Assembly: GCF_030063475.1 (NCBI RefSeq)
Contig: NZ_JASIRT010000026.1
Coordinates: 1-64,000 of the forward strand
Length of the DNA stretch: 64,000 bases
Origin: Roseomonas sp. E05
GTDB taxonomy: Bacteria > Pseudomonadota > Alphaproteobacteria > Acetobacterales > Acetobacteraceae
Direction: 5' to 3'
The notes under the pieces were generated by a model. The model was given only the letters and a program-made list of their open reading frames with translations, did not search any database and was not told where the DNA came from. Position numbers and translations under genes: made by a program. This document shows positions 20,256 to 46,451 of the stretch, one piece after another. Each line of letters begins with the position of its first letter. Position 1 is the first letter of the stretch.

Positions 20256-20909
20256 TCAATGCGCGAAAATATCGGGATCGTCATAGCCCAGCAGGTCGAG
20301 CGCGCCACGGGTGGGAAGAAAGCGGAAGCAGGCCTCGGCCAGCTCAAGCCGCCCTTCGCGCCGCAGCATGGCTTCCAGCCTGGCCCAGAGGGCGTGCAGG
20401 TGCAGCACGTCGGACGCGGCATAGGCGAGTTGCTCCGGCGTCAGCTCGGCCGCGCCCCAGTCGGAGGACTGCTGCTGCTTGGAGATGTCCACCCCGAGCA
20501 CCTCGCGGCAGAGCTCCTTCAGCCCATGCCGGTCGGTGAAGGTGCGGACCAGCTTGGAGGCCACCTTGGTGCAGCGCACGGGAGCGCATTCCACACCCAG
20601 CGCCGCGCGCAGGATGGCGACATCGAAGCGCGCGAAGTGGAACAGCTTGACCACGTCGGGGTCGGTCAGCAGGGCTTTGAGGTTGGGGCAGTCGGCGCCA
20701 CGCCCGCCGAGATGGGGCGGGATGATCTGCACGCAATGGGCATTGCCGTCGCCGGCGGAGAGCTGCACCAGGCAAAGCCGGTCGCGCCGCGGGTCGAGGC
20801 CCATGGTCTCGGTATCGATGGCGACAACCGGGCCGAGGTCCAGCCCTGCGGGCAAGTCATGCTTGTGGAGCTTGATCATCACGTTCGGCGCGAACAGGGT
20901 GCTTCCCAT
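20256..20909 (-). CDS. rnd: Ribonuclease D-type 3'-5' exonuclease
   Basis: A protein of about 217 residues with a DEDD exonuclease domain: Exo I VVAIDTETMGLDP, Exo II VKLFHFARFDVAIL and Exo III YAASDVLHLHALW (DEDDy type). It lacks the C-terminal HRDC domains of E. coli RNase D, as is common in short alphaproteobacterial versions. It should trim tRNA or other structured RNA 3' ends, and it lies just downstream of a tRNA gene on the same strand. ATG 20909 has AGGGG upstream; GTG 20936 is an alternative. Confidence 0.88.
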   Translation of the reverse strand: MGSTLFAPNVMIKLHKHDLPAGLDLGPVVAIDTETMGLDPRRDRLCLVQLSAGDGNAHCVQIIPPHLGGRGADCPNLKALLTDPDVVKLFHFARFDVAILRAALGVECAPVRCTKVASKLVRTFTDRHGLKELCREVLGVDISKQQQSSDWGAAELTPEQLAYAASDVLHLHALWARLEAMLRREGRLELAEACFRFLPTRGALDLLGYDDPDIFAH

Positions 20910-20977
20910 CTTCGCCAACCCCTGCCTTCTCGTCACCGCTTCCGCTGGCCGGTGTCACCGGCGAGGGAGAGGGGAAA

Positions 20978-21061
<84 letters not shown>

Positions 21062-21263
21062 AAGGGGGCGAACCGCCGAACGGCGTGGGCGGCTTTTATG
21101 GGGTCCGCAAAGCCCCGTCAACAGGGGTTTTGCAGAATTTGCAGCGCTCGCGCCGGCCGTTCTTCATCACCGCTGCCAATAACGGCGATGCTCCTGGCCG
21201 CATCGCGCCGGCCCGTCCGGTGCCCCGCCTGGGAGGCCGGGCAAGCAGCAGGAGGGCTTTGCC

Positions 21264-21773
21264 ATGACCGAGATCCGCCCTTTCGAGAGTCTCGGCGGTG
21301 CCGCGTTCGGCTGGCTGAAGGCCAGGCATCACTTCGCTTTCGGCCATTACCGCGACCGGCCTGGAGAGGCTGGGGCCGCCTGCGCGTCTGGAACGACGAC
21401 GAGATCGCCCCCGGCACCGGCTTCGGCCCGAACCCGCGCCGGGAGATGGAGATCATCGCCTTCGTACGGCAGGACGCCATCACGCATCGGGATGATCTGG
21501 GCAACGAGGGCCGCACCGAGGCGGGCGACGTGCAGGTGATGTCGGCAGGCACCGGCATCACCCCTGCCGAGGCCAATCTGGAGCCCGCCACCACGGCGCT
21601 GTTCCAGATCTGCATCCACCCGGACCGCCCCGGCGCCACCCCCGCCTGGGGCACCCGGCGCTTCCTGCGGGCAGGTGGTGAGGACTTCACCGTACTGGCC
21701 CGCGGATGAGGGCAGCGGCGCCCTGCCGCTTAATGCCGATGCCGCGGTGCTGGTGAAGACGGCAGCGGAGTAA
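21264..21773 (+). pseudogene. Pirin-family gene, frameshifted and truncated
   Basis: A strong AGGAGGG precedes ATG 21264 and the pirin start GWLKARHHFAFGHYRD, but the frame is lost near 21370. The family core continues in another frame: LRVWNDDEIAPGTGF, REMEIIAFVRQDAITH, DVQVMSAGTGITPAEANLEP and WGTRRF. That frame stops at 21709. A short third-frame piece (DEGSGALPLNADAAVLV) runs to TAA 21773. About the last 100 residues of a normal pirin are missing. Two frame disruptions plus loss of the C-terminal cupin indicate a dead gene, unless the bases are sequencing errors. Confidence 0.8.
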
Positions 21774-21780
21774 GGAAAAG

Positions 21781-21907
21781 GTCTGGGGGAAGGAATTCCC
21801 CCAGACCCCCATCTTCTTTCTTCGAGTTTCCTGCGCGGACGGAAGCGCCACGCCAACTGACAGAAGAAAGAAGGGGGTTCGGAGGAATTCATTCCCCCGA
21901 TCTTCTT
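21781..21907. repeat. Two-armed intergenic repeat, copy 1
   Basis: The left arm is an 11-bp perfect hairpin (GTCTGGGGGAA / TTCCCCCAGAC, loop GGAA) followed by CCCCATCTTCTTTCTT. After a variable middle of about 40 bases, the right arm AGAAAGAAGGGGG precedes a second GAATTC-centred hairpin. The inner A/G and T/C tracts of the arms can pair with each other. Similar copies lie near 30552, 32552 (half) and 46300. This copy follows the pirin pseudogene. Confidence 0.8.
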
Positions 21908-30281: not shown

Positions 30282-30539
30282 ATGTCGATCATCTGGACCA
30301 TCATTATCGGCCTCGTCGCCGGTCTCATCGCCAAGATGCTGATGCCGGGCCGTGACCCGGGGGGCTTCATCATCACCATCCTGCTCGGCATCGTGGGCGC
30401 GATCGTGGCGACCTATCTGGGCCAGGCCATTGGCTGGTACCGCGCCGATGAAGGAGCAGGATTCATCGGGGCAATCGTCGGAGCCGTCATCCTGCTGGCG
30501 ATCTACCGCCTGGTCCGCGGACGCTCGGCGCACAGCTGA
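30282..30539 (+). CDS. GlsB/YeaQ/YmgE-family membrane protein
   Basis: An 85-residue integral membrane protein with three hydrophobic segments: IIWTIIIGLVAGLIAKML, the segment after GRDPGGF (FIITILLGIVGAIVATYL) and FIGAIVGAVILLAIYRLV. Gly-rich helices and the LMPGRDPGG loop are typical of this stress-linked family, whose molecular role is not settled. A GGCGGAG element precedes the ATG. A copy of the two-armed repeat follows the stop. Confidence 0.92.
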   Translation: MSIIWTIIIGLVAGLIAKMLMPGRDPGGFIITILLGIVGAIVATYLGQAIGWYRADEGAGFIGAIVGAVILLAIYRLVRGRSAHS

Positions 30540-30551
30540 CGCCGGCAGCAA

Positions 30552-30678
30552 GGCTGGGGGAAGGAATTCCCCCAGGCCCCCTTCTGTTTTCCGCATGTTT
30601 CCCGCAGGGGTGGCAAGCGCAGCTCTTAACCGACAAAAAGAAGATGGGGGTTCGGGGGAATTCCTTTCCCCGATCTTC
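30552..30678. repeat. Two-armed intergenic repeat, copy 2
   Basis: The left hairpin is CTGGGGGAA / TTCCCCCAG with loop GGAA (30554-30575). The right arm AAGAAGATGGGGG leads to a second GAATTC-centred stem ending near 30672. The middle differs from copy 1. It fills the gap between the convergent glsB-like and MDR genes and may terminate both. Confidence 0.8.
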
Positions 30679-30691
30679 TCTTCTCCACTTC

Positions 30692-31690
30692 TTAGAGCGC
30701 CACCACCAGCTTGCCGAAGTTGCGCCCCTCCAGCAGTCCGATGAAGGCCTCCGGCGCCTTCTCCAGCCCCTGCACCACGTCTTCCTTCCACTTCAGCCTG
30801 CCCTCGCGGATCCAGGCGGCGCCGCGCTGGCGCCAGACCGGCCAGGCGCGCGGGTGGTCGGAGATGATGAAGCCTTCCAGCCGCAGCCGCTTGCGGTTGA
30901 TGCTGGAGAGGTTCGGGCCGGGCGGCAGCGGGCGGACGTTGTAGGTGGCCACCGTGCCGCAGAAGGCCATGCGGCCGAACTCGCGCATGCGCGGGAAGAC
31001 CGCCGCCTGCACCGCGCCGCCGACATTCTCGAAATAGACGTCGATGCCTTCGGGGCAGGCCGCGTCCAGCGCCGCCTCCAGGTCGTCGCGATGGTCCAGG
31101 CAGGCGTCGAAGCCCAACGTCTCCGTGACGTAGCGGCACTTCTCGGGGCCGCCGGCGATGCCGATGACGCGCGCCCCCATCTGCTTCGCCACCTGCCCGG
31201 CGACGCTCCCCACCGCCCCCGAGGCGGCGGAGACGACGAAGGTCTCCCCTGGCCGCGGCTGGCCGATCTCGGTGACGCCGACCCAGGCGGTGACGCCCGG
31301 CATGCCCAGCACGCCCAGCCAGGCGGTGGGCGGCACGCCCCCCTCCTTCGGCAGCTTCAGCAGCGATCCGCCAGAAGCCACCGAGTAGCGCTGCCAGCCG
31401 CGCGCGCCGCCGACCCAGTCGCCGGGCGCGAAGGCGGGGTGCTGGCTCTCCACCACCTCGCCGACGCACTCGCCTTCCATCACCCCGCCCAGCGGGACCG
31501 GCTTCGCATAGGAGGCCGCATCATCCATCCGCCCGCGCATATAAGGGTCGAGCGAGAGATAGCGGTGGCGCACCAGCACCTCGCCCTTCACCGGGCTGGG
31601 GCGGGGACCCTCCGAGAGTTCGAAGTGCTCCGGGCCCGGCCGGCCCTTTGGCCGCGCCCGCAGAAGGACGCGCAGATTGTTTTCAGCCAT
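30692..31690 (-). CDS. MDR-family NADP-dependent oxidoreductase
   Basis: A 332-residue zinc-independent medium-chain dehydrogenase/reductase of the CurA/prostaglandin-reductase type. It begins with VLLRARPKGRPGPEHFEL and RYLSLDPYMRGRM; the nucleotide site is VVSAASGAVGSVAGQVAK, followed by VIGIAGGPEKC, and IDVYFENVGGAV is typical of the group. It probably reduces alpha,beta-unsaturated ketones or aldehydes with NADPH. ATG 31690 has GGGAGGAG upstream, which rules out the longer ORF. It is divergent from the DUF305 gene. Confidence 0.92.
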   Translation of the reverse strand: MAENNLRVLLRARPKGRPGPEHFELSEGPRPSPVKGEVLVRHRYLSLDPYMRGRMDDAASYAKPVPLGGVMEGECVGEVVESQHPAFAPGDWVGGARGWQRYSVASGGSLLKLPKEGGVPPTAWLGVLGMPGVTAWVGVTEIGQPRPGETFVVSAASGAVGSVAGQVAKQMGARVIGIAGGPEKCRYVTETLGFDACLDHRDDLEAALDAACPEGIDVYFENVGGAVQAAVFPRMREFGRMAFCGTVATYNVRPLPPGPNLSSINRKRLRLEGFIISDHPRAWPVWRQRGAAWIREGRLKWKEDVVQGLEKAPEAFIGLLEGRNFGKLVVAL

Positions 31691-31761
31691 GTGATGGAAC
31701 TCCTCCCGCAATCGATCGATTGGCCTGCCGGTAAGGCGGCGACAGGAGAGACAGCAGCGGA

Positions 31762-32517
31762 ATGAAGCGGATGGCAAGCATGGGCTTCGCGGCGGTGCTG
31801 GCGGTGGCCCTGAATGCCGCCCCGACGCGGGCGGAGCATGGCGATGTGGGCCGCTACTACGATGCCGGCCGGGAAGATGACACGGCGCCGATCACCACCA
31901 CCTGGTGGGACGTGCTGCCGCGCGAGGAGGCGGATGCCGCCATTGCCGCTGACCGGCACTATATCGAGGGCATGCGCCCGCATCATGCCGGGGCCCTGAC
32001 GCTGGCGAAGGGCTATCTGGCCGACCCCGAGGCGCGGAACCCGGTGCTGCGCCGCCTGGCCGGCTCCATCCTGCGGAACCAGGCCTTCGAGATCCTGCTG
32101 CTGGATACGGTCGGCGAGCAGGTGCGGCAGCCGCCGGTGCCGCTGTTCGGGGGCCTTGTGCTGCGCCCGGTGGCGGTGGAGGGGCTGGGCCAGAGCCGGC
32201 GCATTCTGCACACCCCGGGTCCCGGCCCGCTGGCCCTGCTGAACGGCGGCGCGCCGACCACCGAGACCGATCTGCGCTTCGCCAAGGAGATGCGCGTCCA
32301 CCATGCCGCCGCAGTGCGCATGGCACGGAACTACAATGCCGGGGCGGAGGCGCGGAACAACTTTCTCCGGCTGATGAATGTGAACATCGTCACCGACCAG
32401 ACGCAGGAGATCGCCATCATGGACCGCGTGCTGGCGGCGCATCCCAGGCGGGCCGCGGCGATCACGGTGGATCCGGCCAGCATTCCCGGCATGGAGCACA
32501 TGATGGGCGGAAAGTGA
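31762..32517 (+). CDS. Secreted DUF305 (ferritin-like) protein
   Basis: A 251-residue protein with a signal peptide (MGFAAVLAVALNAAPTRA). Two DUF305-type halves carry the family His-His signature: EGMRPHHAGALTLAKGYL and MRVHHAAAVRMARNYN. DUF305 proteins are four-helix, ferritin-like and often near metal genes, but no metal-resistance partner is present here. Its function is unproven. The 3' end is followed by a half copy of the GAATTC repeat with a T-run. Confidence 0.88.
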   Translation: MKRMASMGFAAVLAVALNAAPTRAEHGDVGRYYDAGREDDTAPITTTWWDVLPREEADAAIAADRHYIEGMRPHHAGALTLAKGYLADPEARNPVLRRLAGSILRNQAFEILLLDTVGEQVRQPPVPLFGGLVLRPVAVEGLGQSRRILHTPGPGPLALLNGGAPTTETDLRFAKEMRVHHAAAVRMARNYNAGAEARNNFLRLMNVNIVTDQTQEIAIMDRVLAAHPRRAAAITVDPASIPGMEHMMGGK

Positions 32518-32551: not shown

Positions 32552-32597
32552 AAAAGAAAGATGGGGGTCCGGGGGAATTCCTTCCCCCGGCCTTTTT
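32552..32597 (+). terminator. Half copy of the two-armed repeat, T-tailed hairpin
   Basis: Only the right arm is present (AAAAGAAAGATGGGGG). It leads to a 9-bp perfect stem CCGGGGGAA / TTCCCCCGG with loop TTCC at 32569-32590. CCTTTTT follows at once, so this copy has the form of an intrinsic terminator for the DUF305 gene. It lies between convergent genes. Confidence 0.7.
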
Positions 32598-32599
32598 CT

Positions 32600-44557: not shown

Positions 44558-45058
44558 ATGCGCCTGATCGGATTGGCCGGCTGGAGTGGCGCCGGCAAGA
44601 CCACTCTCCTCGCCAAGCTGATTCCCTGCCTCACGGGGCGCGGCATCCGTGTCTCCACCATCAAGCACGCCCATCACCGCTTCGATGTGGATCAGCCGGG
44701 CAAGGACAGCCACGTCCACCGCGAGGCGGGGGCGGAGCAGGTGCTGGTCGCCTCCTCCCTGCGCTGGGCCCTGATCACCGAGCTGCGCAGCGCGCCCGAG
44801 CCTCCGCTGGAGGAGCTGCTGACCCATCTCTCGCCGGTGGACCTGGTGCTGGTGGAAGGCTTCAAGCGCGACACCCATCCAAAGATCGAGGTGTTCCGCG
44901 CGGCCAACGACAAGCCCTGGCTGCACCCGGAGGACCCCGCCATCCGCGCCATCGCCAGCGATGTGCCGCCCCCGCGCGACCTGCCGCAGGCGGCGCTCGA
45001 CGATATCGAGGCCGTGGCTGACCTCGCGCTGCGCTATGCCGTGCCATGGCACAGCTGA
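44558..45058 (+). CDS. mobB: Molybdopterin-guanine dinucleotide biosynthesis adapter MobB
   Basis: A 166-residue P-loop GTP-binding protein: GLAGWSGAGKTTLLAKLIP at the N-terminus, then VSTIKHAHHRFDVDQPGKDS and DLVLVEGFKRDTHPKIEVFR, the MobB signatures. MobB aids MobA in making the guanine dinucleotide form of the molybdenum cofactor, which formate dehydrogenase requires. Its 3' end overlaps moeA by 13 bases. Confidence 0.95.
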   Translation: MRLIGLAGWSGAGKTTLLAKLIPCLTGRGIRVSTIKHAHHRFDVDQPGKDSHVHREAGAEQVLVASSLRWALITELRSAPEPPLEELLTHLSPVDLVLVEGFKRDTHPKIEVFRAANDKPWLHPEDPAIRAIASDVPPPRDLPQAALDDIEAVADLALRYAVPWHS

Positions 45059-46296
45059 GCGACGACTGCTTCGCCTTCGGCGGCGCGCTGCTCTCGGTCG
45101 AGGCGGCGGCGGCGCTGATCGCCGAGCGCGTGCCGCCGCTGGCCGGGTGGGAGCTGGTGCCACTCGCCGCAGCGCGGGGCCGCGTGCTGGCCGAGGACCT
45201 GCGCGCGCCGCACCCGCTGCCGCCTTTTTTCAACAGCGCGGTGGACGGCTATGCCTTCCGCCATGCCGACCTTCCGGCCGAAGGGGAGATACGGCTCAGG
45301 CTGGCCGGCCGGCTGGCGGCGGGGCAGGCCGCGGGGGCGCCGCTCGTCGCGGGCACCGCCTGCCGCATCCTGACCGGCGCGCCCATGCCGCCCGGCGCAG
45401 ACACAGTGATGATGCAGGAGGATGTCCGGCTGGAAGGCGGTGTGCTGCACCTGCCCAGCGGGCTGAAGCGCGGCGCCAACTGCCGCCCCGCGGGCGAGGA
45501 TGTGCCGCAGGGTGCCCTGGCCCTGGCCGCCGGCACGCGGCTGAACCCCGCGCATGTCGGGCTGGCGGCGGCGCTCGGGCAGCCGGCGCTGGCGGTGCAC
45601 CGCCGCCCGCGCATCGGGGTGTTCAGCACCGGCGATGAACTGGCAACGCCCGGCGGCAGGCTCGGCCCGGCGCAGACCTTCGACAGCAACCGCTTCTCGC
45701 TGCTCGCCCTGCTGGCAGGGCTGCCGGTGGAGCCGGTGGATCTCGGCATCCTGCCCGACCGTGCCGAGGCCACCGCGGCGGCACTGCACCAGGCGGCCGC
45801 CACGCATGACATGCTGCTCACCTCCGGCGGCGTCAGTGCCGGCGAGGAGGACCATGTGCGGGGCGCCATCGAGGGGCAGGGGCGGCTGGTGTTCTGGCGG
45901 CTGGCGCTGAAGCCCGGGCGGCCGGCGGCAATGGGCATCGTCCGGGGCACGCCGGTGCTGGGGCTGCCGGGCAATCCGGTGGCTGCCATTGTCACCTTCC
46001 TGCATCTGGCGCGGCCGCTGGCGCTGCGGCTCTGCGGCGCCATGCCGGAGCCGCTGCCGCGCTTCGTGGCGGAAGCGGCCTTCAGCCATCGCAAAAAACC
46101 CGGGCGGCGGGAATATGTGCGCGTGACGCTGGCGCCCGGGCCCGGCCTGCCCGTGGCGCGGAAGGACCCGCGGGAAGGGGCGGGGCTGCTCTCCTCGCTG
46201 ACGGGCAGCAATGCCTTTGCCGAGTTGCCGGAGGCCTGCACCGTTGTCGTGCCCGGCGAAAGGGTGACCGTGCTGCCTTTCGCCGCCATTTTCTGA
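45046..46296 (+). CDS. moeA: Molybdopterin molybdenumtransferase MoeA
   Basis: A 416-residue MoeA that inserts molybdenum into molybdopterin using adenylated cofactor from MogA. Features: FFNSAVDGYAFRHADL, ILTGAPMPPGADTVMMQED, IGVFSTGDELATPGGRLGPA, the GG(V)SAGEEDHV site, RLALKPGRPAAMGIV and LGLPGNPVAAIVTFL. It overlaps mobB, so the two cofactor genes form a unit directly downstream of formate dehydrogenase. Confidence 0.96.
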   Translation: MAQLSDDCFAFGGALLSVEAAAALIAERVPPLAGWELVPLAAARGRVLAEDLRAPHPLPPFFNSAVDGYAFRHADLPAEGEIRLRLAGRLAAGQAAGAPLVAGTACRILTGAPMPPGADTVMMQEDVRLEGGVLHLPSGLKRGANCRPAGEDVPQGALALAAGTRLNPAHVGLAAALGQPALAVHRRPRIGVFSTGDELATPGGRLGPAQTFDSNRFSLLALLAGLPVEPVDLGILPDRAEATAAALHQAAATHDMLLTSGGVSAGEEDHVRGAIEGQGRLVFWRLALKPGRPAAMGIVRGTPVLGLPGNPVAAIVTFLHLARPLALRLCGAMPEPLPRFVAEAAFSHRKKPGRREYVRVTLAPGPGLPVARKDPREGAGLLSSLTGSNAFAELPEACTVVVPGERVTVLPFAAIF

Positions 46297-46299
46297 AAA

Positions 46300-46420
46300 G
46301 GTCGGGGAATGAATTCCCCCGAACCCCCATCTTTTTTCTGCGGCTTCCTGTGCTGCCGCGCAGCGCGGCGCCGGACTGGCAGAAAGAGGATGGGGGTCTG
46401 GGGGAAGTCCTTCCCCCAGG
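46300..46420. repeat. Two-armed intergenic repeat, copy 4
   Basis: It begins 4 bases after the moeA stop. The left arm GGTCGGGGAATGAATTCCCC and CATCTTTTTTCT is followed by a middle with CGCGCAGCGCG. The right arm AGAAAGAGGATGGGGG leads to a 9-bp stem CTGGGGGAA / TTCCCCCAG. Both flanking genes are on the plus strand, and the right hairpin ends 33 bases before the next ATG. Confidence 0.8.
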
Positions 46421-46451
46421 CTGTTTGCTTCATCCGCAGGAGGAATGCCCG

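Follow-up and report, generated by a model that had tools for sequence, protein, structure and literature searches.

A dispersed intergenic repeat of Roseomonas sp. E05 is built from hairpin arms in which a purine tract (R1) precedes the hairpin across a 3-nt spacer and mirrors its 5' strand (R2), and tract and hairpin change together. On the strand R1-N3-R2-loop-Y, the bases of R1, taken from the spacer outward, recur in R2 when it is read inward. This relation is absent from the earlier note on this DNA, in which two-armed, GAATTC-centred repeats with complementary tracts had been described. Copy number, position, covariation within the local hairpin and mirror coupling are established by computation. 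As for an overall explanation, the chances seem slightly better than even that the paired mirror-tract hairpin arms fold as class I triplexes and stop transcription between converging genes.

The window, i.e. the whole analysed stretch of 64,000 nt, contains three full copies and one half copy at the places given in the earlier note, as found by re-reading the sequence and aligning the full copies, and a profile search of the window returned these four and no other at E <= 1e-3 (whole element) or 1e-2 (arm). Full copy 1 (21776..21907, plus strand), recognized in sequence, alignment and profile search, consists of two arms and a short middle. Its left arm (21782..21815, plus strand) is formed by the hairpin TCT-GGGGGAA-GGAA-TTCCCCC-AGA, followed by the tract CCCCC-A-TCTT, and its mirror strand R1 lies on the minus strand. 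The right arm (21868..21900, plus strand) is formed by the mirror tract AAGAAGGGGG, the spacer TTC and the hairpin GGAGGAA-TTCA-TTCCCCC, which thus includes one A (GGAGGAA). Full copy 2 (30550..30678, plus strand) is bordered by a stop codon at 30537-30539 on one side and by a convergent dehydrogenase gene (30692-31777, minus strand) on the other; its left tract is CCCCCTTCTG. The half copy (32553..32599, plus strand) is flanked by convergent genes and contains the mirror tract AAGATGGGGG (32558-32567), the spacer TCC and the hairpin GGGGGAA-TTCC-TTCCCCC (32571-32588), followed by GGCCTTTTTCT. Full copy 3 (46297..46422, plus strand), whose first stem has only 4 G versus 5 C, abuts the stop codon of a moeA-like gene (45046-46296). 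The GAATTC motif is present, but rather than forming a centre it lies off-centre, spanning the loop and the 3' stem strand of GGGGGAA-KGAA-TTCCCCC, and the layout with complementary tracts applies overall but not to copy 1, where the right tract AAGAAGGGGG is not the complement of the left tract CCCCCATCTT.

For copy 1, the nearest called gene end is at 21709, 66 nt upstream of the element. A TAA in another frame is found at 21771-21773, just 5' of this copy, and a pirin-like frame at 21098-21709 (region 20256-21773) covers only part of the Pfam profile; the adjoining gene may be frameshifted or decayed. In an Rfam scan, no family reached the threshold at the copy positions, and one tRNA was detected elsewhere in the window. 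For one protein of the window, the best named match is Pseudoroseomonas coralli with 94% identity, in a comparison from which very near records may be left out. Comparison of orthologous sites revealed no half copy in P. coralli and no full copy 3 in L077.

The family is far from restricted to the window. In the source genome (5.73 Mb, 109 contigs), a 31-base arm pattern (GGGGGAAKGAATTCCCCC-N4-CCCCHTCTT, up to 3 mismatches) gave 149+143 = 292 matches, where the earlier note had set about ten copies as the least to be expected of a family, and the reversed pattern as control gave 0+0. A DNA search with copy 1 yielded 268 first-look candidates; the 40 that were scored had E <= 1.2e-24 without exception. 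A sample of 1.25 Mb that was read whole (contigs C1, C4 and C5, 120 kb of C2, and the window) contained 139 copies in a profile search, 81 of them at least 110 bp long. Scaling from the 93 copies and 103 pattern arms of C1 and C4 to the 292 arms gives an estimated genome total of about 260 copies. The earlier note's view of a dispersed, REP-like repeat located between genes is thus supported, the family being palindromic, a few hundred copies strong and found for the most part 3' of stop codons. The density per 100 kb is 10.0 on C1, 14.8 on C4, 14.6 on C5, 6.2 in the window and 1.7 in the C2 part. Since the 120 kb read of C2 (C2:1-120000) have only 2 copies, where the three other contigs have 10-15 per 100 kb, this contig may represent another replicon. 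The same pattern occurs in 16 of 17 genomes of the genus; an Acetobacteraceae sample that includes the source genome has it in 26 of 299 genomes, from 11 of 102 genera. The largest load was seen in a congener (G239), with 671 matches of a four-G-stem pattern, in which some sites count twice, and 178 matches of a five-G pattern, two sets that possibly overlap; the source genome has 0 matches of the four-G pattern. In a plasmid collection, four records contain part of the element, all from Pseudoroseomonas or Roseomonas, and the two copies that were checked there (L108, L109) start 1 and 10 nt past an annotated gene end. Carriage by phages was considered and rejected, as phage records searched with the element gave no match. 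No named family was found for the element in Rfam, in line with the earlier note, in which no described family of this structure was known, and an open-access literature search, judged by titles and the beginnings of abstracts, found no paper on this repeat family or on intrastrand-triplex covariation.

The position of the copies relative to genes is highly biased. Genes were called with a caller trained on 81 annotated plasmid genes (43/43 of L108, 38/53 of L109), which recovers 81/81 of its training set; two callers trained without annotation were dropped, as they placed Pfam-supported genes on wrong strands. In the 1.25 Mb sample, gene overlap does not exceed 30% for 137 of the 139 copies, and the distance to the stop codon has a median of 5 nt with quartiles of 1 and 13 (200 distances from 139 copies, those between convergent genes being counted with two). 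Compared with all 786 gaps of at least 20 nt, element-bearing ones included, copies are enriched in convergent context (67/139 versus 155/786; Fisher p 1e-11) and depleted in divergent context (6/139 versus 180/786; Fisher p 2e-8), with 66/139 versus 451/786 in tandem context. Full copies between convergent genes mostly lie within about 10 nt of both stops. The element occupies 64 of the 155 convergent gaps of at least 20 nt and is absent from 91. Lone arms 3' of tandem genes are hairpin-first in 20 cases and tract-first in 10, where 8 of these entries, read by eye, are the two arms of 4 long copies.

Could such a distribution simply reflect insertion tolerance? A mobile repeat of REP/BIME or MITE type, with a structure that serves transposition (e.g. 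by recognition of single-stranded DNA hairpins), is a possible though not a probable full account. Hundreds of similar copies, strong differences in copy number between species, and arms that either stand alone or form inverted pairs like those of REP dimers (PMC3733652) agree with it. In comparison with a relative (G162, median gene identity 91%), 17 of 170 syntenic gaps carry a copy, 9 in both genomes, 7 in the source genome only and 1 in G162 only. Orthologous gaps, read by eye with regard to the clean empty sites and target site duplications that mark MITEs, differ throughout or show relics. At three of the source-only sites (251424, 209693, 198337), an apparent relic hairpin can be seen by eye in G162, and thus decay explains part of the presence/absence difference; the G162 gap at one source-only site, 1.7 kb in length, was left out of the alignment. 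Tolerance alone also leaves unexplained that both convergent stops are abutted so closely. Moreover, the RAYT-type transposase that the earlier note had suggested looking for did not turn up: PF01797 is absent from the source genome and has one short, weak match in 17 genomes of the genus (the control detected it in 5 of 14 genomes), so that no Y1 transposase of the source genome, and one partial match at best among the congeners, could account for the spread. An alignment of 32 copies, inspected by eye, contains no GTAG or CGTC tag. The element resembles REP, BIME and REPIN sequences in being made of short palindromes that occur singly or as inverted pairs with spacers, mostly in convergent or tandem gaps, but differs from their GTAG and CGTC superfamilies by the lack of such a tag and of a RAYT (PMC3733652). 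In that paper, CGTC repeats are stated to be missing in Acetobacteraceae, and the words triplex and mirror are absent from its text (PMC3733652).

Six measured copies of G239 have middles of 139-303 nt, and an all-against-all comparison of middles above 75 nt listed no match between any two of them. A block of one middle recurs elsewhere in that genome, and in L144 this block is an inverted-repeat element within a two-armed copy. These observations indicate that the arms stay while the middle drifts. The nested sequence is a MITE-like repeat with ends near GAGACTGTTTCAAAAG and CTTTTGAAACAGTCTC that was seen in L144, inside the middle, and in L145, both of G239. Structured RNA in the long G239 middles was rejected, as three of them gave z-scores of 0.10, -1.47 and -1.33 and at least one holds another nested repeat. 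A large parent element with a gene between its arms was likewise rejected: the one 2-kb candidate that was read, L128, contains a frame that by eye looks aminotransferase-like, and we take it to be two separate copies flanking a gene. Among alphaproteobacterial intergenic repeats, the rhizobial RIME/Abc and the Brucella Bru-RS palindromic mosaics, which have about 100-130 bp and two palindromes, are similar to the element in size and layout. Lichenicola cladoniae is a member of the Acetobacteraceae as well. Many predicted REPs have been reported for it (PMC12306157).

Within each arm, the hairpin is kept. The pairs -1/+1 and -2/+2 outside the stem core are of Watson-Crick type in 90% and 89% of 146 arms, where 39% and 47% are expected and 500 shuffles reached maxima of 51% and 56%; the third position outside the core is unpaired (26% versus 20%). 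As the outer pairs can be C-G, T-A or G-C, the changes are compensatory. In other genera, both sides of the stem have changed (GGGGGAG..CTCCCCC), and P. coralli has a very different yet perfect hairpin at the 21781 site. The compensatory changes preserve each local hairpin, and the covariation that had been asked for in the earlier note is therefore found within the hairpins but not between the two arms of one copy, which speaks against the proposed cloverleaf. At variable stem positions, the arms are identical in 21% versus 40% expected and 31% versus 46% expected (n=48), the spacer is identical in 2 of 46 pairs versus 6.4 expected, and run length, loop base and outer pairs are all identical in 0 of 46 versus 3.6 expected; since 144 and 116 of 5000 shuffles were equally low, the low spacer and joint identities are modest evidence. 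Run length is identical in 31 of 46 pairs, with a shuffle mean of 32.6. An arm with 6 or more stem G is present in 12 of 75 pairs, and in 0 of these 12 the other arm has the same run; few would be shared by chance, but arms that pair with each other should agree. A cloverleaf or a single long hairpin over both arms was rejected, as minimum-energy folds of 12 copies show arm-arm pairing that covariation contradicts.

What does follow the stem is the tract of the same arm. Stem run and tract run have equal length in 155 of 166 arms, with a mean of 134.7 and a maximum of 144 in 5000 shuffles (13 of 179 arms with unequal stem sides excluded), and a six-C tract accompanies 10 of 11 six-G stems versus 6 of 154 five-G stems. 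In other genomes, the runs are equal in 49 of 51 arms (shuffle maximum 39; 3 of 54 excluded) and in 14 of 14 arms with four-G stems. Genus-wide, 56 of 66 six-G stems have a six-G tract, and among the matches of the four-G-stem pattern in G239, the tract run is 4 in 36 of 46 entries read. A looser scan found equal runs in 144 of 161 family arms of the source genome and in 52 of 54 elsewhere; against the rule, it found a four-G tract at only 2 of 6 four-G stems of the source genome. Also to be counted against the rule is the 21781 site of P. coralli, where the tract CCTCCC no longer mirrors its hairpin. The six-G arms form no tight cluster: their mean distance is 0.377 among each other and 0.409 to five-G arms, and 9 of 10, with one tie, have a five-G arm as nearest neighbour, although five-G arms are 13 times commoner. 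Among hairpins outside the family in the source genome, the runs are equal in 43 of 66, where the margins predict about 27. Equality of run length alone could be explained by a C run that pairs with either G run.

Base identities beyond the run also obey the mirror. Where stem position 7 is G-C, the tract has C in 54 of 54 arms (17 of 299 genomes, 6 genera); where it is A-T, the tract has T in 123, A in 1 and C in 0 of the 124 arms listed out of 437 matches (12 genomes). The change at position 7 may be one ancient event common to two subfamilies. At position 6, which faces A, 159 arms have A in 89, T in 67 and G in 3 cases, a count in which C is unscorable because it would lengthen the run there; with the run fixed at five, the 124 arms listed out of 437 have A or T 123 times, G once and C never. 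In the 54 arms with G-C at stem position 7, position 6 is T in 50, A in 2 and G in 2. In a subfamily of the source genome with the stem GGGGGAGAA, the tract extension is AGAA in 14, TGAA in 4, CGAA in 2 and unrelated in 1 case, the C of CGAA falling outside the triplex code. A link of another kind exists between the tract base W and the loop base: in the H1 orientation, W=A mostly goes with loop G and W=T mostly with loop T, and in six-G arms an A in the R-strand tract goes with loop A in 25 of 25. We know of no structure that explains this link.

Could stems and tracts have been equalised without selection? Template switching and slippage between the runs could in principle do so without any triplex, and the stem C run and the tract C run are direct repeats at a distance of 8 nt. 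In L026 and L139, which belong to two genera, the base of the first hairpin carries small palindromes (AAACCTATAGGTTT; TCGAACGTATACGTTCGA) that may be template-switch products. Mirror complementarity, however, is parallel and does not arise from Watson-Crick pairing, and to our knowledge the known copying errors yield direct or inverted copies, never mirror copies. As the A/G order past the runs is mirrored in several variants, such homogenisation is quite improbable as the source of the pattern.

Mirror tracts were also sought beside stems that do not belong to the element. Among 481 distinct oriented stems, mirror runs of at least 8 occur in 9 (mean 0.78 and maximum 4 in 100 shuffles, to which the same freedom was granted) and of at least 10 in 5 (shuffle mean 0.05, maximum 1). 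Before deduplication, runs of at least 8 numbered 20 of 436 versus 1.3, and a direct-repeat control gave 3 of 436. It has to be counted against this excess that all nine stems look like variants of one GGCGG-tagged family. This second hairpin family of the source genome shows mirror pairs such as GGCGGAAGGGG / GGGGAAGGCGG and GGCGGGGAGAG / GAGAGGGGCGG. A strict whole-block test of one hairpin core gave 19 of 69 versus a shuffle mean of 7.6 and maximum of 16, and is weaker because leading bases are counted within the block. A congener without arm match (G016) shows no excess (1 of 165 versus a shuffle mean of 0.2), and in G162, G292 and G271 where family arms were retained, runs of at least 8 were found in 2 of 111, 2 of 76 and 1 of 98, none of which exceeds the shuffle maxima.

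In purine-motif triplexes, the third strand runs antiparallel to the purine strand of the duplex, with G over G:C and A or T over A:T (PMC4666352). The mirror code observed here (G*G:C, A or T over A:T) fits this motif and not the pyrimidine motif. Each arm would then be a self-contained unit, composed of a hairpin (R2, loop, Y) that follows the purine tract R1 across the 3-nt spacer, and R1 may bend back onto this hairpin and occupy its major groove as a third strand with reverse-Hoogsteen pairing (G*G:C, A*A:T, T*A:T), so that R1-N3-R2-loop-Y would adopt a class I purine-motif intrastrand triplex. The two arms face inward and tend to differ, each presumably folding alone, which would make up the two-armed element. 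A scan of the 1.25 Mb sample for class I candidates with at least 7 triads returned 139, of which 137 lie in the element, which has the three-domain, short-loop, single-strand layout of intrastrand-triplex (PIT/TM) sequences, and there were 0 class II (Y-R-R) candidates. Against this, a class I scan with R1 as direct copy gave 38 matches, all in the element, because G runs read alike both ways. A pyrimidine-motif (class III) triplex of the other strand was rejected, as it needs T at position 6, where A outnumbers T.

The closest counterpart is the BoxC/PIT/TM-ECO motif of E. coli and relatives, which likewise is intergenic and has a G-rich purine strand repeated across a 3-nt spacer beside a hairpin (PMC4666352). 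TM-ECO also forms inverted pairs, and 5 of 5 in E. coli join two types (PMC4666352), just as the arms here tend to differ. According to the same source, however, TM-ECO is of class II (Y-R-R) and thus of opposite polarity to the class I (R-R-Y) element; it has 23 copies in MG1655, versus about 260 estimated here; its distance to genes is not fixed and upstream positions outnumber downstream ones, whereas the element directly follows stops; and its sequence is nearly fixed, whereas variants here change in all three strands (PMC4666352).

With regard to function, the element seems to be kept directly 3' of stop codons, above all between converging genes, and its outward-facing hairpins, with their short T tracts, most likely make transcription arriving from either side stop or pause, a block that a triplex would reinforce in the DNA itself. 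The element could thus serve as a two-sided stop or insulator at gene ends. The family would spread and decay as a non-autonomous repeat. The outward T content at positions 5-9 beyond the stem is 79, 83, 60, 60 and 53% (210 arms). Among mismatches at -1/-2, those giving U.G on the outward transcript outnumber the reverse step 20 to 5 (p 0.004), with 37 further mismatches that are neither C.A nor T.G; over nine stem positions together, U.G-favouring mismatches number 49 versus 25, a count confounded by run-length misalignment. According to PMC4666352, RNA does not adopt purine-motif triplexes, which counts against the triplex reading. Lone arms in both orientations, the 91 of 155 convergent gaps that lack the element, and the precedent of the E. 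coli PIT elements, which in follow-up work summarized in PMC4666352 had no promoter or terminator activity, argue against a two-sided stop role.

The same data can also be read with the element as a multiplied family of ordinary bidirectional intrinsic terminators, whose hairpins and outward T tracts would act as RNA, the mirror tract being a by-product of register sharing between G runs or of subfamily history. The placement 3' of stops and between convergent genes, the outward T tracts and the wobble asymmetry agree with this, and so do orthologous sites read by eye: at the 30552 site, L077 has a plain terminator-like hairpin followed by TTTTT and L072 a half copy, and at the 21781 site the hairpin of P. 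coralli is kept by compensatory change without a mirror tract. Like intrinsic terminators, the element combines compensatory hairpin changes with a T tract and a position 3' of stops, but the outward T tract is short, the inward hairpin is first followed by CCCCC, and lone arms occur in both orientations. Unlike them, it has a mirror tract, two inverted units and high similarity between copies. An ordinary terminator would predict neither that the A/G order of the tract mirrors the stem nor that tract length tracks the own stem and not the other arm, and we therefore consider this account unlikely.

If the class I triplex reading is correct, the covariation of three strands would be natural evidence for selection that preserves, in living cells, an intrastrand DNA triplex of the purine motif, present across the genus as paired class I triplex hairpins that insulate converging gene ends, a conclusion that we put forward tentatively and at somewhat less than even chances. 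Whether intrastrand DNA triplexes act in bacteria is posed as an open question in the paper on the E. coli motif (PMC4666352), and the near-invariance of that motif means that little can be learned from its sequence about how the third strand is selected. The joint changes of three strands in hundreds of copies from several genera offer a testable code together with ready natural mutants, and the placement 3' of stop codons suggests which function to assay. A large repeat family of this kind could otherwise pass for plain terminators or REPs.

Two other intergenic repeats were noticed in the source genome (G000). The second repeat is a GATGGCGGGGTCCGGGGTGACACTGTCACCCCGG-like hairpin (e.g. G000:C1:153067, C1:424115, C4:51305, C5:133471, C5:210433), next to which a second hairpin, bearing a GGCGG-purine tract, often follows; this second hairpin obeys the mirror rule in many copies, whereas the first does not beyond its G run. 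The third repeat is GAGCAGATCCCGTTCCGATGGCATCATCGGAACGGGTGAAGATGCTC-like and lies at G000:C1:16144, C1:44827, C4:101162, C4:208010 and C4:256463.
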